A program made the translations under genes and the position numbers. Below, in pieces: positions 11,018 through 40,492 of a stretch of 64,000 nucleotides of DNA. Source of the stretch: Myxococcus xanthus (lineage in GTDB: Bacteria > Myxococcota > Myxococcia > Myxococcales > Myxococcaceae). Below the pieces are notes generated by a model that saw only the letters and a list, made by a program, of their open reading frames with translations, searched no databases and had not been told where the DNA came from. Where the stretch lies: NCBI RefSeq assembly GCF_900106535.1, contig NZ_FNOH01000006.1, forward strand, positions 124,001-188,000, in the 5' to 3' direction. Every line of letters starts with the position of its first letter. Within the stretch, counting starts at the first letter, position 1.

Positions 11018-14000
11018 ATGGGCGCACCGGTCCTTCTCGTCCACGACGACATCGCCAATATCGCCGCCGTGCGGCGCCTGCTCACGCGTGAAGGGTACGA
11101 GGTCATCCTCGCCACCTCCGCCGCGGATGCCCTCATTGCGTACGGGCACCACCTGCCCGTGCTGCTCGTGCTCGCGCCCGGCGTGGAGAGTGGCCGGGGC
11201 CATCTCGTGCTGGAGGAGTTGCTCCAGCACCCGGATGGCAAGTCGGCCCGGGTGCTGCTCCTGGGCGAGTCCATCCCCGGCTTCAGCGCCCCCGTGGCCC
11301 AACTGCCGCTGGAAGGGGCGGCCTTCGTCGAGCTGGTGGATTCGCTGGTCAATGCCCCCGCGGATGCGGACGCATGGCACGTGGTGGAGAACCGGGAGCT
11401 GCCTCCGTCTGGTGGTGGCTCGGCGGCCACGGGTGCGGAGACGGAGTCCTGGCACGCGACCCCACCGCCCTCGGTGGCGGGCGACTCCGCGCTGGCGAAT
11501 GCGCTCTTTGGGGACCTGGCGCCGCTGCACCAGACGGACTGGGAGCTGGCGGCCATGACGGACGCGGAGCGCTCCGCTCACGAGGCGGCGCAGAAACGCG
11601 AGCGTCAGAGCACGCGCGACCTGGACACCGCCATGGAGCGGGCCCACCTGGAGGTGGAAGCCCAGGCGATGGCCTCCATCGACTCGGCGCTTGCTCCGGA
11701 TTCTTCGGATGGATGGGGCGAGCCTTCGCAGGGGCAGGACTGGGGCTCGGCCGTGGACGCTGAGACGGCCGGAGACGACGCGCAGGGAGCGTCCGCGGGG
11801 CTTGAGGGAGAGGACGCCGCGCCGGCCGAGGATGCGCCGCCAGTGGGACAACTGGCTTGGACGGAGGAGGCTGTTTCTCAGCCTTCGATGCGCACGGCGG
11901 CCCTGGCGCCTCGGTTGGGCGATGAGGGGTTCTTCGACGTCGACACGCCGGAGGCCCCGGCGGGGGATGCCCTCTCCGCGGCGGAGGCAGAGCTGGCTGC
12001 CATGCGCGGCGGGCCTTCCTTCGACTCCGTGAGCACGGAGGGCTCGCCCTGGACGGAGCTGCCTCCGGACCCCGAGATGGAGCACGCAGGGCGCGTGGGC
12101 TCGGGGGGGGATGGTGCGGGCGATGTACCCGGTGAGGCGCCGTCCACGGAGCCCAAGCTGGCGGCGGACGCCGAGCCGCAATCACCGTCATCGGAGACTG
12201 AAGACACGTGGGGCACGGAGGCGGCGCTCGGTGAGCCCGCGGACACGCCGGAGCCGGACGCGGCGGCGGTCTCCGCGTCCAACTGGGAGTTGCTGGAGGC
12301 GGAGCTGCAATCTGCTTCAGGCCCGTCCCAGGATGACGAGGAGCCGCAGGCGTCGGGCGTGGGGGATGACTGGTTCGACGGGGAGTCCACTGAGACGCCG
12401 AAGGAGGAGCCTCGCAGCATCGGGGAGGATTGGTTCGACTCGGACGCGGAGGCGTCGAGCCCCGCGCCAGAGGCGCCGCCTGTCGTCGAGACGCCCGCCC
12501 CAGGCGCCGGAGGCTTCGCGGTTCCCGCGCTGATGGCGCAGTGGCAGGCCCAGCAGGAGGAAGCGGAGCGCCAGCTCGAGGAAGCTCACGCGCGTGTGAG
12601 CTCTGTCACCGAGGCGCTGGAGCGGGAAGCCGCGCTGCGCCGCGAACTCGAGCAGCAGGTCCAGGGGCTCCAGGAGCGGCTCGAGGCGGAAGAAGAGGAG
12701 CGCTCGCGGGAGTCCTTGCTGCGGGCGGAAGCCGAAGCGGCGCTGGAAGGGCTCCGTCAGCGGGAGTCGCCTTCGTCCAGGGGCGCCGCCAGGGCGGCCC
12801 TCGCGGGCGACGCGCAGGAGACTGGCGACCTGTCGGCGCTGCGCGAGGAGCTGGAAGCGCAAGTCCGCCTCCGCGAGGAAGCGGAGACGCTCACCGCCGA
12901 GGTGGAGGCCCAGGTCCGCCGGTTCGAGGATGCCTGCGCGGAGGCGGAGCTGCGGGCCATCGACGCAGAGGCCCGCGCGGAGGCAGAGACGCAGGCCCGT
13001 GAGGCAGCGGAGCTTCGCGCCGCGGCGAGCACGCAGGCATTGCAGGCGCTCGAAGCGCGCCTGGAGTCGGAGGCCGCGGGGCGAGTCGTTTCGGAGGCCC
13101 GCGCCGAATCGGAGTCCAAGGCGCGTCAGACCGCGGAGCGCCGGGTCGAGTCCGCCGAGGACCTGACCGCGGTGTCGGAAGCGCGCATCGACGCGGAGGC
13201 TCGTGCCCGCGAGGCCGCGGAGGCCCGCGCCGAGGTGGAGGCCCAGTCGCGGCTCGAAGCGGACACGCGTGCGCAGAGCCTGTCGCGAGCCCTTGAGGAA
13301 GTAGAGACTCGCGCGGAGCTGGCGGGGCGTGCACAGGCGGAGGCAGAGGCTCGCGCGGAGCAGGCTGCGCGTGCGTTGGCGGAGTCGGAAGCCCAATCGG
13401 AACGGATTGCTCGGGCCCTGGCTGACGCCGAGGCGCGCGTGCAGGCGGAGAACGGTGCGGACGCCCGTGTGGAGTCCGTGGCCACGGCGCTGGCCGAGGC
13501 CGAGGCTCGAGCCGAGATTGAATCCGCGGCCCGCGTGGATGCCGAAGCACGGCTGGCGTCAGCGGAGGCGGCGCTTGCCGAGGCCTCCGCGCGAGCGGAG
13601 ATTGAGGCCACGGTGCGCGCCGAAGCCGACGCCCGGGTGGAATCGGTCGCGACGGCTCTGACTGAGGCGGATGCCCGGGCGGAGATTGAGTCCGCGGCTC
13701 GCGTGGACGCCGAGGCGCGTCTGGAGTCCATCGCCACGGCGCGTGCCGAGGCCGAGGCCCGAGCAGAGATTGAAGCAGCGGCGCGTGCCGAGGCAGAAGC
13801 CCGGGCCGAGATTGAGGCAACGGCGCGCGTGGAAGCGGAGGCGCGTGCTGAAGCCGAGGCGTTGGCTCGCCAGGCGGCGGAAGCCCGAGCCGAAGCCGAG
13901 ACACGAGCACGTGAGGAAGCGGAAGCCCGCGTCACCTCCGAATCTGATGCGCGCACCGGATTGGAAGCGGAGGCCCGTGCGAACGCAGAGGCCCGCGCGA

Positions 14001-16570
14001 AGAAGGCGGAAGCTCGGGCTCAGCAAGAAGCGGAGCTACGTGCAAACGCAGAGGCCCAGGCTAGCAGCGAGGCTGCGGCCCGGGCGGAGGCCGAAGCCCG
14101 AGCGGAGCAAGGCGCCGCTGTACGCCTTGAAGCCGAAGCCCACGCTGAGCGCACGACAGCTGCGCTGAAAGAAGCCGAGGCCCGAGCTGAGAGCGCAGTA
14201 GCCGCATTGCAAGAAGCCGAAGCCCGAGCTGAGAGCGCAGTAGCCGCATTGCAAGAAGCCGAAGCCCGAGCTGAGAGCGCGGCTGCCGCATTGAAGGACG
14301 ACGGTGCTCGAGCTGAGATTTCGGCCGTCGCGCTGAAAGCCGCGGAGGCTCGAGCCGAGAGCGAAGCAGCAGCACGGCAAGCCGCGGAGGCCCGAGCTGA
14401 AAGCGAGGCCGTCGCGCGACGCGAAGCCGAAGCCCGCGCGGAAATCGCGGCCGAGGCGCGAGCCGCAGCCGATGCCCGCGCCGAAGCAGAGGTCGCCGCA
14501 CGGTCCGAAATAGAGGCCCGCGCCGAGCGCGAGGCGAAGTTGCGTGCGGCAATCGAGGTCCGTGCGGAGAGCGAGGCGTCCTCGCGAACCGACGCAGACA
14601 CGCGTGCTTCTCGTGAGTCCGAGGCCCGAGCCGCAGCCGAGGCCCGCGCCGAGCACGAGGCCACGTTGCGCGCCGAAGCCGAGGTGCTCGCGAAGGCGGA
14701 GGCCCAGGCTCGCGAGAAGGCGGAAGCACAGGCTACCGCGGAGGCGGAGCGCCGCGCGGAAGCCGAAGCCCGAGCCGAACGTGAAGCGCAGGCCCGCGCC
14801 GAAGCCGAAGCCCGCGCCGAGCGCGAAGCGCAGGCCCGTGCTGAAGCGGAATCTCGCGCCGAGCAGGAGGCCCAGCAGCGCGCCGAAGCAGAAGCACAGG
14901 CAAGGCGAGAAGGAGAGTCCCTCGCCGCCGAGAAGGCACGTGCCCGAACGGAAGAAGAACACCGCGTCACCGCCGCCGCCCAGGCTGAATCCGAGGCCCA
15001 GGCACGGCACGAAGCGGAAGCCCGCGCCGAAGCCGCCCTGAAGTCCGCCGAGGAGGCGGAAGCCCGAGCCGAAGCCGAGGCGAAGCGCCGTGCCGAGGCC
15101 GAAGCTCGCGTCCAGCAATCCGCCCAGGCCGAAGCCGAAGCGACCGCCCGCGCGAAGGCCGAAGGCCGCCACCGAACGGCCCTCGAAGTCCGCCTGGACG
15201 CGGAGGCAACGCAGCGAGCGACGCTGGAATCCCGGCTCGAAGAAGAGTCCCGCGCCCGCAGCGAGTCCGAGTCCCGGCTCCTCGCGGAGAACACCCGAAT
15301 CTCCGAGGAACTCGCCGAGCTCCGCCTGGAGCACCAGCAGTCCCGAGAGAACTTGGCGAAAGAGCGTGAAGCACGCGAGTCCCTCGAACAATCCCTGGAG
15401 GCACTGCGCACCGAGTCCGCCGAACAGCGAGCCCGCTCCGAGCGCGAACGCCTGGAGCTGGAGGAGCGCGCGCTCCGAGACGCGGAGGAAGCCGCTGCCC
15501 AGGCCCGAGCATCCATGCTGCCCCTGGAAGCACCTCCCGGCAGACCCGAGCTGGCCGTGGCCCGCAGTGGCAGCGTCACCCAGGATGGCCTGACGAAGCT
15601 GGTGCTCCGGCTCTGTGAGGCCCGCATGGAGATGCGGTTGGAGCTGAAGGTGATGAACGCCCTGCGCGTCCTCTGGCTGCGGGACGGGGCGCTGGTGGGG
15701 GCCGTCTCCTCCGCGCAAGGGGAGACGTTGGTCGACCGGGCCCGCGCGGACGGGCTCATCGACGCGCGGCAGGAAGGCGAGCTGCGGCTGGTGCGCAGCG
15801 CCACCACGGCCGCGCTGCTGGACGCACTGCGGGGCCGGGGCTACCTGCGGGAGTCCGAAGCCGTGCCCCTGGTCCAGCGCTACACCGAGCAGGTCTTCCT
15901 GGACGCGCTGGCGGAGCCCTCGACGCTCTACCGCCTGGTATCGGAGCCGGCGCCGCACGAGGTGGCGCTTGCCGCCGCCACGCGTCCGCCGCTGCACCTG
16001 TTGGCCGAGGCCCTGCGCAACACCCTCACCTCCGAATCCCTGCTGGAGGCCGCCGGGAGCCTGCGCGCGCGCGTCACCCGCGGCGACATCCACCTGGCCC
16101 CGGATGACTTCGGCCTGCCTTCGCGGGACCTCCAACTCCTGTCCCAGGTGGACGGAGAGCACACGCTGGAGGCGCTGCTCCTGGGCGCGGGGCTGCCGCA
16201 GGACTCGGCATTGAAGTCGCTCGCGGTGGCGCGGACGCTGGGGCTCGTCTCGCTGGAGCCCGCGACGGATGAAGACGCGGGCGACCTGCCGCCGGAGCTG
16301 GACGTCCGGCGCCTGGAAGCCAAGTTCGAGGAGATCCAGGACGCGGACTACTTCGCGGTGCTGGGGTTGGCCCGCTCGGCGGGGGGCGAGGAGGTCAAAC
16401 GCGCCTACGAGCTGTTGGCCGCCGAGTTCCACCCGCTGCGCTTCGCGGGGCATCCCGACCCGGCGCTCCAGCACCGTGCGCAGCAGATCCGCACCGTGCT
16501 CGCCGAGGCCGCCCAGGCCCTGGGAGACGACCGGCTGCGCTCGGAGTACGCCCGAAGCCTGCTCGACTGA
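11018..16570 (+). CDS. Giant pseudo-receiver / coiled-coil / DUF4388-like / J-like protein
   Basis: 1850 aa. Residues 1-115 resemble a response-regulator receiver (VLLVHDD at 5-11), but no Asp is present at the expected phospho-acceptor position ([14 protein letters not shown]), so it is a pseudo-receiver. Residues ~120-505 are acidic and disordered, with repeated DDWFD/EDWFD motifs. Residues ~510-1510 form an almost uninterrupted Ala/Glu/Arg coiled coil with a 14-residue (two-heptad) repeat of the form RAEIEAxARxEAEA. Residues ~1525-1760 resemble the DUF4388/PATAN-type domain common in myxobacterial regulators. The last ~90 residues are a DnaJ-like helical hairpin ([20 protein letters not shown]), with HPL where Hsp70-activating J-domains have HPD. 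A pseudo-receiver followed by a long coiled coil recalls the M. xanthus polarity/motility proteins AglZ and FrzS, but the J-like end is different and I cannot equate it with either. Probably in an operon with priA. Confidence 0.85.
14181..14280 (+). repeat. Perfect 42-bp tandem repeat in the coiled-coil region
   Basis: Two identical 42-bp units (14181-14222 and 14223-14264) are followed by the first 16 bp of a third before divergence. Each unit encodes 14 residues (for example [14 protein letters not shown]), matching the two-heptad period of the surrounding coiled coil. Many neighbouring units are degenerate versions of the same repeat, so the whole rod appears to have grown by unit duplication. 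Confidence 0.9.
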
Positions 16571-32510: not shown

Positions 32511-33173
32511 ATGGGAGCAGAGGCCGCAGTGGAATCGGGGGACGTTCGTCAGCGCCGGCAGGTTCGTATCCGCAGGGCGGACATCAAGCGGGGCCAACGG
32601 ATGAAGGTGGCGTTCGCCGTGTTCCGCTTCTGCCTCTACGGCATGGTGGGGCTCAGCGCCGAAATCTTCTTCTACAACCTGGTGCGCATCGCCCAGCACG
32701 TGCCGTTGCTGGAGGCGCTCTTCCGCTTTCAATGGCGCGTGGACGACCGGTTGGGGCTCAACGCCATCTGGGATACGCCCATCTCCACGGCGTATGGACA
32801 GTGCTCGCTGTGGATGTTCGTCATCTACGGTGTGGCGTGCTTCTTCTTCATCGAGCCGCTCTACCGCTGGATGCTGTACCAGCACACGGGCCTGCGAGCC
32901 GCTGTGTACGGCGTGGTCATCCTGCTCTTTGAAGGCTTCTCCGGTGTCATGCTGGAGCGGCTCACGGGATACCGCATCTGGTACTATGCGGATGCCGGCG
33001 CCATTCTCTGGCAGATGACCTCGCTCTACATCCTGCCCATCTGGATGGTGACGGGCCTGCTGGCGGAGTTCATCTACAGGGAGCTGATGGACCCTGACCT
33101 CCTGGCGGCCTTGGAGTCTCCGCTGCCCGCCACGCCGGAAGAGACCGAGGCCTCGTTCCAGTTGATTCGGTAG
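32511..33173 (+). CDS. Polytopic membrane protein, CmpB/ABC-permease-like
   Basis: 220 aa from ATG 32511 with a GGGGG ribosome-binding element 6 bp upstream; a TTG start 4 codons earlier is possible. After a basic cytoplasmic leader (RQRRQVRIRRADIKRGQRMK) there are about 4-5 hydrophobic helices. The block FEGFSGVMLERLTGYRIWYY resembles the signature of putative ABC-transporter type IV permeases (CmpB/DUF1113-like), which have E-x2-TG...W-x-Y in a re-entrant region. This is pattern-level similarity only. The 3' end overlaps the converging DUF2378 gene by 100 bp. The function is unknown. Confidence 0.7.
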   Translation: MGAEAAVESGDVRQRRQVRIRRADIKRGQRMKVAFAVFRFCLYGMVGLSAEIFFYNLVRIAQHVPLLEALFRFQWRVDDRLGLNAIWDTPISTAYGQCSLWMFVIYGVACFFFIEPLYRWMLYQHTGLRAAVYGVVILLFEGFSGVMLERLTGYRIWYYADAGAILWQMTSLYILPIWMVTGLLAEFIYRELMDPDLLAALESPLPATPEETEASFQLIR

Positions 33174-33697
33174 ACGCAGGCGTGGCCGTCGTAGCCGGAC
33201 ATCTCGATGACGATGTCCTGCGCACCGGCCACCCGCAGCCCCGCGTGGATGATGCCCGCGGTGAAGGCAGGGTAGGGGCCTACCTCGTTCATCCAGAGCT
33301 CGAACTGGGTGGGCCCCAGCTCACGCAGCTTGGATTCCGTGTAGTTGTTGCCAGCCCGGAAGTTCTGTGTGGCCCGCATCAGCGTCCTGCGGGGCCCCAG
33401 CACGCGAAGCAATGAGAGGACGGCGCGTCCCAGCATCGTCTCACGGAAGCCTTCGATATAGGCCTCACCCAGCTTCCAGGTGCCCTGCTCGAGCGGGAGT
33501 TGGGGAAAGAGCTCCTCCGACGTGATGCGAAGGAACGTCATCCACGCGTCGAAGGTGTAGGCTGGCCGGAGCTTCTGATCCACATCGAGCCCTGCCTGCC
33601 GCAGGCGTGCCTTGCACTCAGGCGTCAGGCGCCCGTGCAGTGCCCGCAGGAACAGGGCTTCGATGGTCTGCTCAAAAATGAGAAGCTCGTCGGCCAT
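33074..33697 (-). CDS. DUF2378 (TIGR02265) myxobacterial protein
   Basis: 207 aa. Matches the TIGR02265 family: FEQTIEALFLRALHGRL at the N-terminus, YTFDAWMTFLRITSEELFP in the middle, LGEAYIEGFRETMLGRAVL, and a C-terminal alpha/beta part of the type FTAGIIHAGLRVAGAQDIVIE. The family occurs in many copies in myxobacteria. Its alpha/beta layout resembles heme/ligand-sensing HNOB-like or V4R-like folds, but no ligand is established. The last ~33 codons overlap the converging membrane-protein gene; the conserved domain ends near CVYRINW, so the overlapping tail is probably unstructured. Confidence 0.82.
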   Translation of the reverse strand: MADELLIFEQTIEALFLRALHGRLTPECKARLRQAGLDVDQKLRPAYTFDAWMTFLRITSEELFPQLPLEQGTWKLGEAYIEGFRETMLGRAVLSLLRVLGPRRTLMRATQNFRAGNNYTESKLRELGPTQFELWMNEVGPYPAFTAGIIHAGLRVAGAQDIVIEMSGYDGHACVYRINWNEASVSSGVAGSGDSKAARRSGSISSL

Positions 33698-33775: not shown

Positions 33776-34276
33776 TCAGGGCGTGGGTGCGGGGGGCGGG
33801 GTCGGCGTATCGACCGAAGTGCCCTGGATGATGGCGTTCTGCGGCAGCTCCGTGGCCATGCCCAGCACTTTCGCACCAGCGGTCTTCGCGCCGTCCAGCG
33901 CAGTGATGAGCCGCCCGTAGTTGGTGGCGTCATCCGCCATGAAGAAGACGACTTTGTCGTCCGCCTTCTTGGCCGCCAGCATGCGCTTGAGCCGCGTCAC
34001 GTAGTCGGCGGGGGCAATCTTCTCCGTGTTGATGGAGTAGCCACCGTCCTTGTCGAGCTGGACCACCAACTGCTGGTCGTTCGGGTCGGGAGGCGTCGGC
34101 TCCTGGTCGACCTCGGTGTCCGGCACGCGCACCACGATGTCCTTCTCGAGGAGCGGCGTGACGACCATGAAGATGATGAGGAGCACCAGCACCACGTCAA
34201 CCAGCGGCGTGACGTTGATCTCCGAGTTCGGCTGCGCCTGGGGCTTGACCCACTGTCGTTGCTTGCGGCCGGCCAT
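33776..34276 (-). CDS. exbD: ExbD/TolR-type biopolymer transport protein (second copy)
   Basis: 166 aa. One transmembrane helix with the key Asp in INVTPLVDVVLVLLIIFMVV (residues ~20-39; the Asp is proton-conducting), followed by a periplasmic domain that ends in a Pro/Thr-rich tail. The start overlaps the stop of the preceding exbD (TAATG), so translation is coupled. It is last in the tonB-exbB-exbD-exbD operon. With ExbB it should form the proton-driven stator that energises TonB for the outer-membrane transporter Oar encoded divergently. The periplasmic domain differs from the first copy, so the two may form mixed dimers or serve different states. Confidence 0.92.
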   Translation of the reverse strand: MAGRKQRQWVKPQAQPNSEINVTPLVDVVLVLLIIFMVVTPLLEKDIVVRVPDTEVDQEPTPPDPNDQQLVVQLDKDGGYSINTEKIAPADYVTRLKRMLAAKKADDKVVFFMADDATNYGRLITALDGAKTAGAKVLGMATELPQNAIIQGTSVDTPTPPPAPTP

Positions 34277-34692
34277 TACTTCTTCTCCTCGACGCCCAGG
34301 GAGATCTGCTTGGCCTTGGACTTGCGGGCCACGTCCAGCACCTTGCGCACGTCACCAACGCTGAGCGCGTTATCACCCTTGAGCAGGATCTTCTTGCCTG
34401 GATCCTTCTCGATTTCCGCGGTGAGCTTCTCCTGGAGCCCTTTCTCATCCACCTGGTCGTTCTCCACGAACACCTTCTTGTCCGGGGTGATGGAGAGGAT
34501 GAGCGGGTCGGCTTCCTTCCCTTTTCCTTCCTTCTCGATCTCGGTGGCCTTCGGGAGCTCCACGGACTTGCCACGCTGGAGCATCGGGGTGACGACCATG
34601 AAGATGATGAGGAGTACCAGCACCACGTCGACCAGCGGCGTGACGTTGATGTCGCTCTTGACGCTCCCCTTGGGGCCTGCTGACATTCCCAT
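34276..34692 (-). CDS. exbD: ExbD/TolR-type biopolymer transport protein (first copy)
   Basis: 138 aa. N-terminal DINVTPLVDVVLVLLIIFMV with the functional Asp, then a periplasmic domain with ILSITPDKKVFVENDQV and KKILLKGDNALSVGDVRKVL, as in ExbD/TolR. The ATG at 34692 has an AGGTAAAG element nearby; a second ATG follows two codons later. It is separated from exbB by 125 bp containing a hairpin, and joined to the second exbD by TAATG. In M. xanthus the corresponding cluster sits beside oar, and proton-motive-force coupling is needed for Oar-dependent secretion. Confidence 0.92.
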   Translation of the reverse strand: MGMSAGPKGSVKSDINVTPLVDVVLVLLIIFMVVTPMLQRGKSVELPKATEIEKEGKGKEADPLILSITPDKKVFVENDQVDEKGLQEKLTAEIEKDPGKKILLKGDNALSVGDVRKVLDVARKSKAKQISLGVEEKK

Positions 34693-34720
34693 GTCTTTAC
34701 CTGTTTCCTGGTAAGGAGGT

Positions 34721-34739
34721 GCCCGCCTTCACGGTGGGC
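34721..34739 (-). promoter_or_regulatory. Hairpin in the exbB-exbD spacer
   Basis: A 7-bp stem (GCCCGCC at 34721-34727, GGTGGGC at 34733-34739, one G-U pair in the RNA) with a 5-nt loop lies in the 125-bp gap between exbB and the first exbD. It is a candidate for partial termination or for a processing/stability element that sets ExbB:ExbD ratios. Confidence 0.4.
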
Positions 34740-34817
34740 CTCCAGCGCCCCGAAGAAGAGCTGGAGACAGGGTCACCGTGAAGGGCATCGGGTCGTCCCC
34801 GACTCGCCCGGGACGGC

Positions 34818-35501
34818 TCAGGCGGCGTTCGAGGACTGCGCGCCACCACCCAGGTGGCGGGCAACCACGTCCAGGAACTCGTTGGACGACTCGGAGATGT
34901 CCACCGAGCGCGCGTCCACCCAGCCCTGCAGGAAGTTGTACGCCATCACCGCGGGGATGGCCACGAGCAGACCGAAGGCCGTGGTGATGAGCGCCTCGGC
35001 GATACCGGCGGAGATCGTGCCGAGACCACCGGAGCCCGCCTGCGCCATCAGCTGGAAGGCGTTGACGATACCCATCGTGGTGCCGAGCAGACCGACGAAC
35101 GGCGCCGTGGAGCCGACCGTGGCCAGCAGGCCCAGACCGCGCTTCATGCTCTGGACCTCACGCTGCGCCTGACGCTCCAGCGCGCGCGCCACCGACTCCA
35201 CCGCCACGTCCTTGTTGTTCGGGCTGATCCGGTACGCCGTCAGTCCGGAGTTGATCACCCGGCCCAGGTGGCCCACATCCTTGCCCAGGTTGGTGTTGGC
35301 GGCCGTGTTCAGGTCGCCTTTGGCCAGGATGGCACCCATCTTCGCGGCGAAGTTGCGGCTGTCAGACCGCGTCTTGCGGAAGACGATCATGCGCTCCGCC
35401 AACACGACCAGCGAGGCGATGGACATGATGCCCAGGGTGAAGATGATCATACGGGCGAAGAGGCCCGTGTGATCCCAGATTTCTGCGAGAGTGAATTGCA
35501 T
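34818..35501 (-). CDS. exbB: ExbB/TolQ/MotA-type proton channel protein
   Basis: 227 aa with three transmembrane helices: residues ~16-37 (MIIFTLGIMSIASLVVLAER), ~125-150 (LATVGSTAPFVGLLGTTMGI, the family signature) and ~165-190 (AEALITTAFGLLVAIPAVMAYN, with the conserved Thr of the proton path). ExbB forms the pentameric inner-membrane channel around ExbD and powers TonB. A GGAGGAGC element precedes the ATG. Position: second gene of the tonB operon. Confidence 0.95.
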   Translation of the reverse strand: MQFTLAEIWDHTGLFARMIIFTLGIMSIASLVVLAERMIVFRKTRSDSRNFAAKMGAILAKGDLNTAANTNLGKDVGHLGRVINSGLTAYRISPNNKDVAVESVARALERQAQREVQSMKRGLGLLATVGSTAPFVGLLGTTMGIVNAFQLMAQAGSGGLGTISAGIAEALITTAFGLLVAIPAVMAYNFLQGWVDARSVDISESSNEFLDVVARHLGGGAQSSNAA

Positions 35502-35572
35502 GGTTGGGTTGAGCGCTCCTCCTCACGAGCGCGGGGTAGTCAGCAATACGCCTCTAGACGACGCGCCCGGAC

Positions 35573-36325
35573 TCAGCGCGGCAGCTTGAAGTTCAGGGTG
35601 AAGGTGTAGTCCACCTGCACAGGACGGCCCTGGAACGTGACCGGCTTGTAGCGCGACGACGCCAGCGCGTCCAGGACGGCCCGGTCCATGTGGGGCAGGG
35701 GCTTGATGATCCGGCAGTTCTCCACTCGACCTTCCACGGTGACGATGCACTTCACGATCATCGTTCCCTGGACGCGAGCCTCGAGCGCCTCACGAGAGTA
35801 CTCGGGCTGAGGACCGGACAACTTCTCCGGCCGCGTCATGCCCGCACCGAACGGAAGCACGTCGGTTCCCGTCCCGCCAAGCTGGCCGCCGACCACGCCG
35901 CCAATCACACCACCGACCACGCCACCGACGACGCCGCCGACCACGCCACCTTCCACGCCGCCCTCGACGACTTCTTCGCTCGCCTCTTCTTCAGCGGGAG
36001 GCTCTTCGGAGGGCTCCACTTCCTTCGGGACCTCCTTCGGAATCTCCTTCGGCTGGACGATGGCGTCCGGCTTCTTGGGCTTCTTCGGCTGCGTCTTCGG
36101 CTTGCTCGAAGAGGCAGGAGGCGGTGGAGGAGGAGGGGGCGGCGGAGGCGGTGCCATGGTCGCCTTCAGCGTGACCTCAATCTCCTTCTCCTCCTCGACG
36201 GGCGGTCGCGTCGACAGCCAGATGGAGAGGCCGAACAGCGCCACATGGAGGATAACCGAGACAGTAGCCCCGACGCCGAATCGCGACTTGGGCCCCTGAC
36301 CACGGTCAAGGACTGAATCGAACAT
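35573..36325 (-). CDS. tonB: Energy transducer TonB with Gly-Val repeat linker
   Basis: 250 aa. One N-terminal transmembrane anchor (VGATVSVILHVALFGLSIWL, residues ~17-37) with the His/Ser face typical of TonB is followed by EVTLKA, a polyproline run of 12, a KPKKP/EVPKEVEP Lys-Pro/Glu-Pro region, then about eight Gly-Gly tetrapeptide repeats (~125-157). The C-terminal TonB domain has PEYSREALEARVQGTMIVKC, VEGRVENCRIIKPLPHMD and KPVTFQGRPVQVDYTFTLNF. It spans the periplasm and pulls on the TonB box of outer-membrane transporters. First gene of its operon, divergent from oar; a promoter is visible upstream. Confidence 0.95.
   Translation of the reverse strand: MFDSVLDRGQGPKSRFGVGATVSVILHVALFGLSIWLSTRPPVEEEKEIEVTLKATMAPPPPPPPPPPPPASSSKPKTQPKKPKKPDAIVQPKEIPKEVPKEVEPSEEPPAEEEASEEVVEGGVEGGVVGGVVGGVVGGVIGGVVGGQLGGTGTDVLPFGAGMTRPEKLSGPQPEYSREALEARVQGTMIVKCIVTVEGRVENCRIIKPLPHMDRAVLDALASSRYKPVTFQGRPVQVDYTFTLNFKLPR
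35875..35965 (-). repeat. Tandem 12-bp repeats encoding Gly-Gly tetrapeptides in TonB
   Basis: About eight imperfect 12-bp units, each encoding x-x-Gly-Gly (mostly Val-Val-Gly-Gly, with Val-Glu, Val-Ile and Gln-Leu variants). They separate the Pro/Lys/Glu-rich extension from the globular C-terminal domain. Confidence 0.85.
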
Positions 36326-36391
36326 GCACTAGACTCCTCTTCACCAGTGGACACCCATTGGCGACGCTCCGCCCGGATGAAAGGGCGCGCT

Positions 36392-36419
36392 ACCATACAG
36401 AAACGCGTTCCAGGTTCAA
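36392..36419 (-). promoter_or_regulatory. Candidate sigma-70 promoter of tonB-exbBDD
   Basis: Minus strand: TTGAAC (36419-36414), a 16-bp spacer, then TATGGT (36397-36392). The start point would be ~60 bp upstream of the tonB ATG. It does not overlap the oar promoter, which is ~90 bp away on the other strand. Confidence 0.5.
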
Positions 36420-36488
36420 GCAAGCACGGTCGACGGACGGGGCGTGATCGCGCAATTGCCCCACTGGTTACCAAAAAGCAACGGTCTA

Positions 36489-36516
36489 TTGACAACTGCT
36501 CGACCTCGGATATTTT
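36489..36516 (+). promoter_or_regulatory. Candidate sigma-70 promoter of oar
   Basis: A perfect -35 TTGACA (36489-36494), a 16-bp spacer and a -10 TATTTT (36511-36516). Transcription would begin ~37 bp before the oar ATG, which has a GGAGGGG ribosome-binding site. The strong elements agree with the high abundance expected of Oar. Confidence 0.6.
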
Positions 36517-36559
36517 CCCGGGTCATTTTCACTTGCAGCCCACCTTGGAGGGGTCTGGT

Positions 36560-39500
36560 ATGCACTTGAACCGAGTGCTCCGGGAAACCGGAGTTGTTGT
36601 CGCCGCAGGTCTGCTGTACGGATCCGCGGCTTTCGCGCAGTCGAGCACGATCATCGGTACGGTGATCGACGCTCAGAGTCGGCAGCCTGCCGCTGACGTC
36701 GTTGTGACCGCCACCTCGCCCAACCTTCAGGGTGAGCAGACGGTCGTCACCGACGCGCAGGGTAACTACCGCATCCCCCAGTTGCCCCCCGGCGACTACA
36801 CCCTGCGGTTCGAGAAGGAGCAGTTCAAGCCGTACGCTCGTTCGGCCATCCAGCTGCGTCTCAACCGCACCATCCGCGTCAACGTGGAGCTGCTCCCCGA
36901 GGCGCTCGGTGAGGTGGTTGAGATCGTCGGCGCGCCCCCGACCATCGACGTGGGTTCCACGACGATGGGCGTGAACGTCGATCAGGAGTTCATCAAGCGC
37001 ATCGCCGTTGCGCGTCCGGGTGGCAAGGGCGGCGCGACCCGCTCCTTCGAGTCCCTGGCCGAGCTCGCGCCTGGCGCCCAGAACGACAACTACGGCGTGT
37101 CCATCAACGGCTCGACCTCGCCTGAGAACGGCTACGTGGTGGACGGCCTGTCCACGAACGACCCGGCCTTCGGCGTGAACGCCAGCCCGTTGAGCATCGA
37201 GTTCGTGCAGGACGTGAACATCATCACCGGCGGTTACATGCCGGAGTTCGGCCGGTCCACCGGCGGCGTCATCAACGCGGTCACCCGGTCGGGCTCCAAC
37301 GAGTTCCACGGCTCCGTGTTCGCGAACTGGACGCCGGGCACCCTCGAGGGTACCCGCAAGCAGATTCGTGAAGAGGGCACGGTCATCACCGGCCAGAACC
37401 AGCTGCAGAACCTGGGCGACTTCGGCGCCACCCTCGGTGGTCCGATCCTCAAGGACAAGCTGTGGTTCTTCGCCGGCTTCGCGCCGTCGTTCACCCGCTA
37501 CCAGCACACCCGCACGCTCAATGCGCTGCGCGTCGATGACGAAGGCAACACGATCAAGGACGAGACCGACTTCACGGTCGCGGACGCGATCCCCGGTTCC
37601 GCCAGGAAGTACTACGCCGACTCCCGTACCATTCAGTACATGGGTAAGTTGACGTACCTCATCAACCAGGACCACAACGTGTCGTTCGCCCTGAACGGTA
37701 CGCCGACCTCGACGGGTGGCCTTGGGAAGCTGAGCGTCAATCCCCAGTCGGGAGGCCTGCCGGGCGTGCTGGCTACCCGTCCGGGTGACTTCGGTCTTAC
37801 GGAGACGAAGGCCAACACGACGTCTCTGGCCCTGAAGTACGCCGGTGCCTTCGCGGACAAGAAGGTCCTCGTTGATGCGAACCTCGGCTGGTTCCACCAG
37901 ACCGCGTCCACCCTGCCGGGTGACGGCAGCAACCTGGGCGATCGCACGGGCCTGGCTGGCTACTCGCGGATGGTGTACACCACCCCGCGCGCGCTGACCC
38001 TGTTCGAAGCCCTGCCCGAAGGGCAGGAGGGTGCCTGCGGCAGCACGCCGGAAGAGCAACTGCTCCGCTGCCCGGTGACGGGCTACGGGGTGGGTGGCCC
38101 TGGCTTCATGAGCGACCAGACGCTGGATCGCTACCAGGCCAACGCGAAGGCCACCTACCTGCTGAACGCGCTGGGCACCCACGTGTTCAAGGCAGGCGTG
38201 GACGTCGAGTTGCTGTCGTTCGACCAGGTGAAGGCGTACGGCGGCGGCGTGTTCTTCCAGGAGGGTTCGAACTACGGGGTTGCTGGCCAGGGCCCCGCCG
38301 TGCACGATGCGCGTCGCTACGGGTATCAGACCGGTCCTGACTCTGCGGTGACGCAGTTCACCCAGGTTGCCAAGACGACCAGCACCACGGTCGGTGGCTT
38401 CCTCCAGGACTCCTGGTCCATCGCGAACCGGGTGACTCTGAACCTGGGCGTCCGCTACGACGTGCAGGCGCTCTACGGCGGCAATGGCGACCTCTCGCTG
38501 CTGCTCGGCAATCAGTGGTCGCCGCGTATCGGCGCCATCGTCGACCCGTTCGCCAACGGCCGCGCGAAGGTGTTCGTGAACTTCGCTCGTTACTACGAGC
38601 AGGTCCCGCTCAACCTGATGGACCGCGCGTTCCCGGGTGAGAACCGCATCTCCGCGCGTCGCTCCCTCGCGGAGCCGGGCCAGGGCACGGCGACCTCGTG
38701 CGACCCGTCCAGCTTCGAGAGCCAGCAGGCTACGTGCAACACCGACTCGAACCTGCTTGCCATTCCGGAGAGCAGCCGCAACGTGAACCGCTTCTACACG
38801 GGCGGCACGGTTGGCGGGACGCCGGTCGACCCGGACATCAAGGCCCAGTCCTCTGACGAAATCGTGGTCGGCGCCGAGTACGAAGTGCTGGCGAACACCC
38901 GCCTGGGTGCGAGCTACACGCACAAGGACATGAACTCGGTCATCGAGGACATGAGCCGCGACGACGGCAACACGTACTTCCTCGGTAACCCCGGCAGCGG
39001 CTTCGCCGGTGAGTTCCCGACGCCGGTTCGTAACTACGACAACGTCACCGTCTACCTGAACCGTACGTTCGCCGACGGCTGGCTCGCCCAGGCCAACTAC
39101 ACCTGGTCGCGCCTGTACGGTAACTATCCTGGTCTGTTCCGTCCTGAGACGGGCCAGCTCGACCCGAACATCCTCTCGGACTTCGACCTCATCGAGCTCC
39201 TGGAGAACCGCACGGGTCTGCTGCCGTTCGACCGCACGCACCAGATCAAGGTCTTCGGTGCGAAGGAGTTCAACATCTCGAACGCCCTGTCGGCGAGCGT
39301 GGGTGTCTCCTACCGCGGTAGCTCTGGTACGCCGATCAACTACTGGGGTAGCCACTGGGCCTACCTCCAGGACGAGTCCTTCGTCCTCCCCCGTGGCGCT
39401 GGCGGCCGTACGCCGTGGATCAACACCATCGACTCCAACATTGGCGTGAACTACCGCGTCAGCAAGGACAGCGTGGTGTCGTTCACCCTGGACGTGTTCA

Positions 39501-39745
39501 ACCTCTTCAACTTCCAGGGCGTGAACACGGTCGACCAGACGTACACCCTGCGCGACATCAAGCCCATCCCGGGTGGCACGCCTGCGGACCTGGAGAACCT
39601 CCCGGGCCGCGTGGAGTTCCAGGACCAGGCGCCGCGTGACGAGCCCTTCGGCAGTGTCGACGGCGACGTGAACAAGAACTTCAAGAACCCGCTCTCGTAC
39701 CAGGCGCCCCGTCAGGTCCGCTTCGGCATCCGGTACACGTTCTAA
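36560..39745 (+). CDS. oar: Oar-type TonB-dependent outer-membrane transporter
   Basis: 1061 aa, the length I recall for M. xanthus Oar. Signal peptide 1-26 (cleavage after AFA). Residues ~30-100 form a carboxypeptidase-regulatory-like beta-sandwich (GTVIDAQSRQPAADVVVTAT and GNYRIPQLPPGDYTLRFEK). Residues ~125-265 form the plug (GYVVDGLSTNDPAFGVNAS and GGVINAVTRSGSNEFHGS). The remainder is a 22-strand-type barrel ending FGIRYTF with the terminal Phe of BAM substrates. Oar was first described as a ~115-kDa outer-membrane protein needed for development and was later shown to be required for secretion of the protease PopC, an export role for a transporter class normally used for import. Strong promoter and ribosome-binding site. 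A lipoprotein gene follows 36 bp later; the cognate tonB-exbBDD is divergent. Confidence 0.95.
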   Translation: MHLNRVLRETGVVVAAGLLYGSAAFAQSSTIIGTVIDAQSRQPAADVVVTATSPNLQGEQTVVTDAQGNYRIPQLPPGDYTLRFEKEQFKPYARSAIQLRLNRTIRVNVELLPEALGEVVEIVGAPPTIDVGSTTMGVNVDQEFIKRIAVARPGGKGGATRSFESLAELAPGAQNDNYGVSINGSTSPENGYVVDGLSTNDPAFGVNASPLSIEFVQDVNIITGGYMPEFGRSTGGVINAVTRSGSNEFHGSVFANWTPGTLEGTRKQIREEGTVITGQNQLQNLGDFGATLGGPILKDKLWFFAGFAPSFTRYQHTRTLNALRVDDEGNTIKDETDFTVADAIPGSARKYYADSRTIQYMGKLTYLINQDHNVSFALNGTPTSTGGLGKLSVNPQSGGLPGVLATRPGDFGLTETKANTTSLALKYAGAFADKKVLVDANLGWFHQTASTLPGDGSNLGDRTGLAGYSRMVYTTPRALTLFEALPEGQEGACGSTPEEQLLRCPVTGYGVGGPGFMSDQTLDRYQANAKATYLLNALGTHVFKAGVDVELLSFDQVKAYGGGVFFQEGSNYGVAGQGPAVHDARRYGYQTGPDSAVTQFTQVAKTTSTTVGGFLQDSWSIANRVTLNLGVRYDVQALYGGNGDLSLLLGNQWSPRIGAIVDPFANGRAKVFVNFARYYEQVPLNLMDRAFPGENRISARRSLAEPGQGTATSCDPSSFESQQATCNTDSNLLAIPESSRNVNRFYTGGTVGGTPVDPDIKAQSSDEIVVGAEYEVLANTRLGASYTHKDMNSVIEDMSRDDGNTYFLGNPGSGFAGEFPTPVRNYDNVTVYLNRTFADGWLAQANYTWSRLYGNYPGLFRPETGQLDPNILSDFDLIELLENRTGLLPFDRTHQIKVFGAKEFNISNALSASVGVSYRGSSGTPINYWGSHWAYLQDESFVLPRGAGGRTPWINTIDSNIGVNYRVSKDSVVSFTLDVFNLFNFQGVNTVDQTYTLRDIKPIPGGTPADLENLPGRVEFQDQAPRDEPFGSVDGDVNKNFKNPLSYQAPRQVRFGIRYTF

Positions 39746-39781
39746 TCCCAGGCCCAGTCACGGAATCGGAACATCAGTCAC

Positions 39782-40492
39782 ATGACCAAGAACATCGTCA
39801 ATACTGCGTTGGTTCTCGTGGGCGCGGGAAGCCTGCTGACGGGCTGCAACTTCGAACAACCTGAGACCAACTGCTTCGTGCAGGAGTCGCCCAGCTGGGC
39901 GGTGAAGTACGACGTCGTGGATTCCCCCAAGGACGCGAATGGCGACGAGTGCACCACGACTGCGCCGCTCGTGGAGTTGATGGGTGTCTACAAGTACGTG
40001 AACCCGGAGACGGGGGCCGCGCAGCTCGCACTTCGTCCCGCGACTCTGGCGAGCCGCGCGATTGCTGACACGACGACCACGTCGGCGGATCAGACTTCGC
40101 TCGGTTCTCTGGACACCGAACCCAAGGACCATGGCTTCTGCCACGCGAACGACTTCGCTCCTGCGTTCGTCAACGTGGCGGCCTCGGATACTGCGGCGGC
40201 GAACACCATCCGCTACGAGTTCACTAATGTTCGCGTGTACTCGGCGGCTGTGGCGCCGGGAACCCAGTTCACGGGCGAGCTCAAGTACACCAGCAATGGT
40301 TGCACTTCGTCCTACGTGATGCGCGCTGTGTGGCCGCCCGCACCGTGCGATACCGCCTCGACGGAGCCCGCAGAGAACTGCGGTGTGGGGTCCGGCCTGA
40401 ACCCGGAATTCGCCGTGGTGTGCCAGCCGACCAGCGCGACTGGAACCACGGGCTACTGCGTGCCGGCGGGTGACATCCCGTCGTTCAAGTAG
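39782..40492 (+). CDS. Cys-rich outer-membrane or periplasmic lipoprotein linked to oar
   Basis: 236 aa. A clear lipobox LLTGC gives lipidation at Cys22, followed by Asn-Phe, not Asp, so outer-membrane sorting is plausible. The mature part has eight further cysteines (TNCFV, DECTT, GFCHA, NGCTS, APCDT, ENCGV, VVCQP and GYCVP), probably four disulfides, and a beta-rich profile. It is 36 bp downstream of oar on the same strand with no terminator between, and a strong hairpin follows it, so oar and this gene probably form one transcript. By analogy with surface lipoproteins that partner TonB-dependent transporters (SusD, TbpB), it could cap Oar or present its substrate; there is no sequence similarity to those families. 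Confidence 0.85.
   Translation: MTKNIVNTALVLVGAGSLLTGCNFEQPETNCFVQESPSWAVKYDVVDSPKDANGDECTTTAPLVELMGVYKYVNPETGAAQLALRPATLASRAIADTTTTSADQTSLGSLDTEPKDHGFCHANDFAPAFVNVAASDTAAANTIRYEFTNVRVYSAAVAPGTQFTGELKYTSNGCTSSYVMRAVWPPAPCDTASTEPAENCGVGSGLNPEFAVVCQPTSATGTTGYCVPAGDIPSFK

Follow-up and report, generated by a model that had tools for sequence, protein, structure and literature searches.

A variable lipoprotein gene is paired with the gene of the TonB-dependent transporter Oar in Myxococcus xanthus and its relatives

In the SusC-SusD and TbpA-TbpB systems, the gene of a TonB-dependent transporter (TBDT) is paired with the gene of an outer-membrane lipoprotein. Here we describe the oar locus in a 64,000-nucleotide stretch of a Myxococcus xanthus genome (GCF_900106535.1, contig NZ_FNOH01000006.1, positions 124,001 to 188,000; hereafter the window, in whose numbering coordinates are given unless otherwise stated), together with the lipoprotein gene that follows oar. 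This locus is like the two systems above in that a lipoprotein gene adjoins a TBDT gene, and it differs from them in that the lipoprotein has no detectable sequence relation to solved structures. Oar of M. xanthus is a TonB-dependent outer-membrane transporter required for the secretion of PopC (PMC6434023). It is a published case of a TBDT used for secretion, and the determinants of direction and cargo are at stake in it. The window locus resembles the described Ton-Oar system (MXAN_1450 with tonB1, exbB1, exbD1 and exbD2; PMC6434023) in gene order and in its Oar protein, which is 96% identical over residues 1-1061 to the 1062-aa Oar of M. xanthus AM003 (L031). It differs in the downstream lipoprotein, the AM003 protein being only 57-59% identical to that of the window.

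The ton-oar locus and the idea of export through it are already published; what is new is the pairing of the lipoprotein with Oar and its variability. In the open-access literature, preprints and most subscription papers aside, this pairing and variability were not found in print, and MXAN_1451, or mlpA, was found solely in the proteome table of PMC3222651.

The gene oar (36560..39745, plus strand, ATG start, 1061 aa) is followed after 36 bp by the gene of an mlpA-like lipoprotein of 236 aa (39782..40492, plus strand), recognized by its LTGC lipobox with Cys22. We compared this arrangement with 155 Myxococcota genomes, scoring at most five Oar candidates per genome, and with 78 named loci fetched with Oar. 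For 145 of the best 150 Oar matches in the genome set, the gene that follows on the same strand is that of the lipoprotein, with a median gap of 34 bp, and reciprocally a listed Oar lies upstream in 145 of the best 150 lipoprotein matches. The lipoprotein profile matched 72 genomes and the Oar profile 98 (E 1e-150); a lipoprotein match is present in all 70 Oar-bearing genomes of the window's family and in 2 of the 28 outside it. Among the named loci, 36 of 78 have a lipoprotein match, and at four loci the lipoprotein is present with no ton match despite at least 3.2 kb of upstream sequence. All four ton genes are found divergent from oar at 28 of the 78 loci; two of these 28 gave no lipoprotein match, namely L060, which has a lipobox open reading frame (ORF) directly downstream, and L072, where the locus is cut off. 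No match was found at named loci whose Oar identity is 40% or less, nor at L063, where a lipobox ORF is present, nor at L082 and L087, which encode shorter Oar-like proteins. Judged from gene order, the lipoprotein gene is a near-constant companion of close Oar homologues, including some without adjacent ton genes, and the pairing is a trait of one group within the Oar proteins that does not extend to all distant relatives. The proposal from the sequence-only reading that the lipoprotein is part of the system is, as far as gene pairing among close Oar homologues goes, strongly supported.

This companion is also exceptionally divergent. Compared with G023, chosen as the closest relative found with another lipoprotein allele, the lipoprotein is 54.4% identical, less than any other of the 252 collinear genes compared over 400 kb, for which the median is 98.0%; the genes were called with a simple GC3 filter, some being likely antisense ORFs (265 called, 256 matched, 252 kept). 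Along the 64-kb window, 214 bins of 300 bp have a median identity of 98% to G023, and the two bins below 90% both fall in the lipoprotein gene. A general variability of lipoproteins was considered and rejected: four other lipobox genes, recognized by eye among the 30 lowest in this comparison, stand at 91-95%. Across the genus, the lipoproteins are further apart than the Oar proteins in 349 of 351 pairs, with a median distance ratio of 2.6.

Against AM003, synonymous divergence (dS) is 0.61 for the lipoprotein gene and 0.01-0.12 for nine neighbouring genes. Since dS is raised along with nonsynonymous divergence (dN), the pattern suggests that a distant allele took the place of the old one. The trees agree with this: the window's group joins L126 and L127 in the lipoprotein tree, and L122 and L123 in the Oar tree, in which the earliest branchings among the deep ton-linked Oars were left unresolved. 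In approximately unbiased (AU) tests, for which the groups were named after the identity matrix had been seen, neither data set accepts the grouping of the other, p being 7e-5 for the Oar grouping under the lipoprotein data and 0.013 for the converse. Because the two trees conflict, the lipoprotein allele was probably swapped by recombination. At the level of sequence, these comparisons establish that the window's lineage and the G023 species carry lipoprotein alleles of different ancestry, and the gene pairing together with allele replacement is strongly supported.

Two other genes stand out in the comparison with G023. The second lowest encodes a SUKH-1 (SMI1_KNR4) protein of 76% identity (L234:8720-9268, corresponding to C6 382720-383268); the SUKH-1 family includes immunity proteins of polymorphic toxins. 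Another of the more divergent genes of the window encodes an 1850-aa protein (11018-16570), which is 91.5% identical in G023 and has a C-terminal DnaJ domain as its sole Pfam match at E 1e-5.

The lipoprotein of the window corresponds by position, beside MXAN_1450, to MXAN_1451 (MlpA), which was identified by mass spectrometry in the M. xanthus outer membrane with 4 peptides, as was Oar with 40 (PMC3222651). Tables 3 and 4 of that report also hold other outer-membrane barrels and outer-membrane lipoproteins with adjoining locus numbers (MXAN4746/4747, 2659/2660 and 5685/5684), and barrel-lipoprotein gene pairs may be common. Membership of the window lipoprotein in a known Pfam, NCBIfam, PHROG or PDB-sequence family was tried and rejected, nothing scoring above chance. 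Decay of the gene was likewise rejected, as the window and each of the 26 genus genomes whose loci were inspected have an unbroken ORF. Nine cysteines, including the lipidated one, are invariant in all 27 genus members. The structural model has a mean predicted local distance difference test (pLDDT) score of 88, and its best fold matches are PagL (Z 9.2) and Cap15 (Z 8.8); PsbO, streptavidin, OmpA, BT2262 (Z 6.9) and fHbp (Z 6.4) follow with Z of 6-8, and the tool warns that below 8 a match may reflect merely a common arrangement. No SusD-like fold appears among the matches listed for the model, which says nothing against a likeness to SusD.

Oar itself was considered as a possible paralogue distinct from M. 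xanthus Oar, and this was ruled out by the full-length alignment with AM003 and the tree; the neighbourhood is the same as well, and the orthology proposed from the sequence is borne out. The Oar of Myxococcus sp. CA023 is 99% identical, and by such matches the window's genome, of 9.26 Mb, belongs to Myxococcus. The identification rests on ORF, Pfam, alignment and model. A signal-peptide-like segment at the N-terminus is followed by an N-terminal extension matching CarboxypepD_reg (PF13620, 1.6e-18, residues 30-111), and the barrel matches TonB_dep_Rec (PF00593) with 43.7 bits against a cut-off of 27; the Plug match (PF07715, 7.7e-4, 20.4 bits) falls below its cut-off of 23.9 bits. The AlphaFold model has 22 predicted barrel strands and a mean pLDDT of 72, with residues 115-246, most of the plug, below 50. 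The best Foldseek match of this model is the ferredoxin receptor FusA (1.5e-20), and PirA and PfeA are also among the TonB-dependent receptors matched.

On this model, the variation of Oar lies mainly in predicted extracellular loops, which were assigned to the outside on account of their length. The loops with the highest mean entropy are L2 (1.35), L5 (1.00), L4 (0.92), L7 (0.80) and L11 (0.79), and values are low in the plug (0.11), the strands (0.28) and L9 (0.15); the cysteines 493, 504, 714 and 726, in loops L4 and L7, are invariant. The mature lipoprotein, with an entropy of 1.26, varies more than all Oar regions except L2. In a partial Mantel test, the lipoprotein distance is associated with the distance over L2-L5 and L7 beyond that of the Oar core (partial r 0.50, p 0.0005), a result that is suggestive only.

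The PopC of the window genome was identified by mass and context, without a reference sequence, as a subtilase-family protein of 475 aa and 50,840 Da with no evident signal peptide by eye and with a popD-like ORF adjoining; the published mass is 50.8 kDa (PMC6434023). It is 100% identical in G023, which carries the other lipoprotein allele, and 99% in G025. In the 155-genome set, where absence means no match at E 1e-40, PopC is found in 55 genomes, all of one family and all with an Oar match. A divergent ExbB lies within 3.5 kb of oar in at least 62 of the best 150 Oar matches, one per genome, the search threshold of E 1e-70 making this a lower bound; 52 of these 62 genomes have PopC and 10 do not. 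Three genomes with PopC lack a listed ton-oar arrangement (G022, G139 and G178), and in all three oar lies 430 bases or less from the contig start. Among 29 Oar-bearing genomes (29 of the 78 loci), full-length PopC of 74-99% identity is found in 14, comprising Myxococcus, Pyxidicoccus, Corallococcus, Citreicoccus, a Myxococcaceae metagenome-assembled genome (MAG), two Archangium isolates and one labelled Comamonas. Full-length PopC was not found in the other 15, in which the subtilase matches listed are partial, of 46% identity or less, or none; these include Sorangium, three Polyangium, several MAGs and three Geothrix. In seven of the 15, all four ton genes stand beside oar (L055, L056, L058, L059, L060, L062 and L064). 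The simplest reading of these distributions is that the ton-oar module is older than PopC or has other cargo. Since PopC is 99-100% identical in the other-allele species and 10 ExbB-oar genomes are without it, PopC does not explain the lipoprotein variation, which suggests that the divergence is driven from outside the cell.

A candidate source of such pressure comes from M. xanthus, where a mutant in MXAN_1448 (ExbB1) is fully resistant to the toxin SitA5-Mf1 and partly resistant to SitA5-Mf2 (PMC8546572). Because the ExbB1 mutant resists SitA5-Mf1, an external pressure on the locus is plausible, and the case is like the entry of colicins and SitA toxins by way of Ton components (Cir; ExbB1 with SitA5, PMC8546572), the window's exbB being the ExbB1 orthologue by position. 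We propose a picture in which Oar would be a general transport route and PopC secretion a lineage-specific use of it. The lipoprotein would sit on the outer face of Oar, by analogy with SusD and TbpB on their transporters, against the variable outer loops, where it may cap, gate or shield the route; use of the Oar-ExbB1 route by toxins, phages or competitors would then favour the exchange of mlpA alleles as well as changes in the Oar loops. This picture as a whole, in which the TBDT and its lipoprotein form a pair that is attacked at its outer face and PopC export is one of its uses, is the one we favour, by a little over even chances. A bolder version makes the lipoprotein an exchangeable gatekeeper that differs between strains: its recombining alleles would decide which toxins (for example SitA5), phages and competitor proteins enter by the Oar-ExbB1 route, and a developmental pathway of secretion would serve at the same time for kin discrimination and immunity. 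We offer it as a speculation that we consider unlikely to hold in full. Oar in any case gains a little-studied, closely linked outer-membrane partner at a locus tied to toxin entry. If the lipoprotein does gate Oar, fruiting-body signalling would be linked to warfare between strains, and one small gene would bear on what makes a TBDT secrete.

Other explanations account for part of these observations. The sequence-only reading had seen in the locus a dedicated protein-export machine with the Ton system as motor and the lipoprotein as export accessory. Secretion of PopC requires Oar in M. xanthus, and its release in Escherichia coli requires Oar together with TonB, ExbB and ExbD. In the 2019 work each ton-oar gene was deleted, and loss of exbB1, exbD1 or exbD2 alone lowers PopC secretion. 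Development is also defective in the mutant of either exbD gene, which upholds a part for both; in the tonB1 mutant secretion is essentially blocked, which the authors attribute to lost oar expression (PMC6434023). The occurrence of Oar in every PopC genome of the set fits this model too. The claim that the Ton system powers export, however, stands on the single mutants and fails on the quadruple ton-oar mutant, which secretes PopC at the wild-type level in an Oar-dependent manner, although p17 is not made and Oar is no longer polar (PMC6434023). Since this mutant secretes PopC normally, the Ton system beside oar is not a motor on which secretion depends. The ExbB-oar genomes that have no PopC match count against a dedicated machine as well. 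The authors of PMC6434023 state that passage through the Oar barrel was not demonstrated and hold PopC to be most likely unfolded, so that the folded substrate of the sequence-only reading is not supported. An export machine of this kind appears improbable to us.

A better case can be made for Oar and the lipoprotein as primarily an importer of the SusCD or TbpAB type, with PopC secretion in Myxococcaceae a secondary, co-opted function; this we regard as a real possibility, if a less than even one. The TBDT fold predicted for Oar, with receptors as its best Foldseek matches, argues for it, as do the pairing itself, the presence of the module without PopC and the five Oar copies listed in each of six genomes (among the matches listed). 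No ligand is known, however, the M. xanthus oar mutant grows at the wild-type rate (PMC6434023), and the lipoprotein matches neither solved structures nor Pfam families in sequence. Finally, the lipoprotein gene could simply ride along with oar in one transcript under weak constraint and diverge through relaxed selection, as the protein's lack of a known domain and its high entropy would allow. The invariant cysteines, the joint rise of dS and dN that points to a distant allele, and the pairing at Oar copies without ton genes speak against this, and we consider it very improbable.

Several observations nevertheless weigh against the favoured picture of an Oar-lipoprotein pair under attack from outside. 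That the lipoprotein touches Oar at the surface is conjecture, as is the selective agent, and the lipoprotein may be periplasmic instead of exposed at the surface. SitA5 toxins pass between cells by outer-membrane exchange (PMC8546572). The lipoprotein is 98-99% identical in the nearest relatives, G013 and G024, which carry the same allele, so that its change is episodic and must be an event and not a steady drift; its dN/dS of 0.22-0.56 gives no sign of positive selection at sites. In the paralogue pair L147/L148 the usual relation is reversed, the lipoproteins being 98% and the Oar proteins 95% identical. The partial Mantel correlation with loops L8-L11, a comparison set that includes the variable loop L11, is also significant (r 0.22, p 0.0005), and shared ancestry may explain part of the association. 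The pairing is not universal, as the lipoprotein is matched in 72 of the 98 Oar genomes and the 26 without it are outside the window's family, and the window genome itself encodes further, shorter Oar-like proteins but a single lipoprotein match. For the distribution of PopC, a survey reports homologues in Polyangiales bins (PMC11821767); we did not find full-length PopC in four Polyangiaceae genomes, which is in possible conflict with that survey.

The remaining genes of the locus complete its likeness to M. xanthus. Leftward of oar, on the minus strand, lie tonB (35573..36325, 250 aa, the tonB1 orthologue; Pfam TonB_C 1.9e-16), exbB (34818..35501, 227 aa, the exbB1 orthologue, MXAN_1448 in M. 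xanthus by position; MotA_ExbB 3.4e-34), exbD1 (34276..34692, 138 aa; ExbD 2.5e-25) and exbD2 (33776..34276, 166 aa; ExbD 3.3e-22), the last two overlapping by one base and each 99% identical to its AM003 counterpart. The head-to-head arrangement of tonB-exbB-exbD-exbD with oar, followed by the lipoprotein gene, is confirmed for all six genes. TonB, ExbB and ExbD, the components of a Ton energising system, are encoded together according to ORFs and Pfam, and the four Ton proteins are 96-99% identical to those of AM003. The neighbourhood equals that of AM003 gene for gene, and it is near certain that the window locus and the ton-oar, oar and mlpA locus of M. xanthus are orthologous. Between tonB and oar lies a divergent intergenic region of 234 bp (36326..36559), in which a promoter-like TTGACA-16-TATTTT on the plus strand (36489-36516) was recognized by its match to the consensus alone. 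The TonB linker (within 35573-36325) contains a proline-rich, poly-proline run and then a Gly/Val repeat (GGVVGGVVGGVV...).

Beyond these genes, a radical-SAM gene comes next after the lipoprotein gene. A DUF2378 (TIGR02265) protein is encoded at 33074-33697, immediately after exbD2 and in the same orientation; its gene is so placed in Myxococcus, Pyxidicoccus and two Archangium loci, and it gave no match in the Corallococcus loci. Two records with Oar-type genes carry doubtful labels. The record Comamonas sp. KCTC 72670 (L032, BNCN01000002.1), a genome of 9.0 Mb, holds a Myxococcus-like Oar locus in the same order with 93% Oar identity, and its name looks wrong. A MAG labelled Bifidobacterium breve (L096, CALQBK020000025.1) holds an Oar-like TBDT, and its label or binning is probably wrong.

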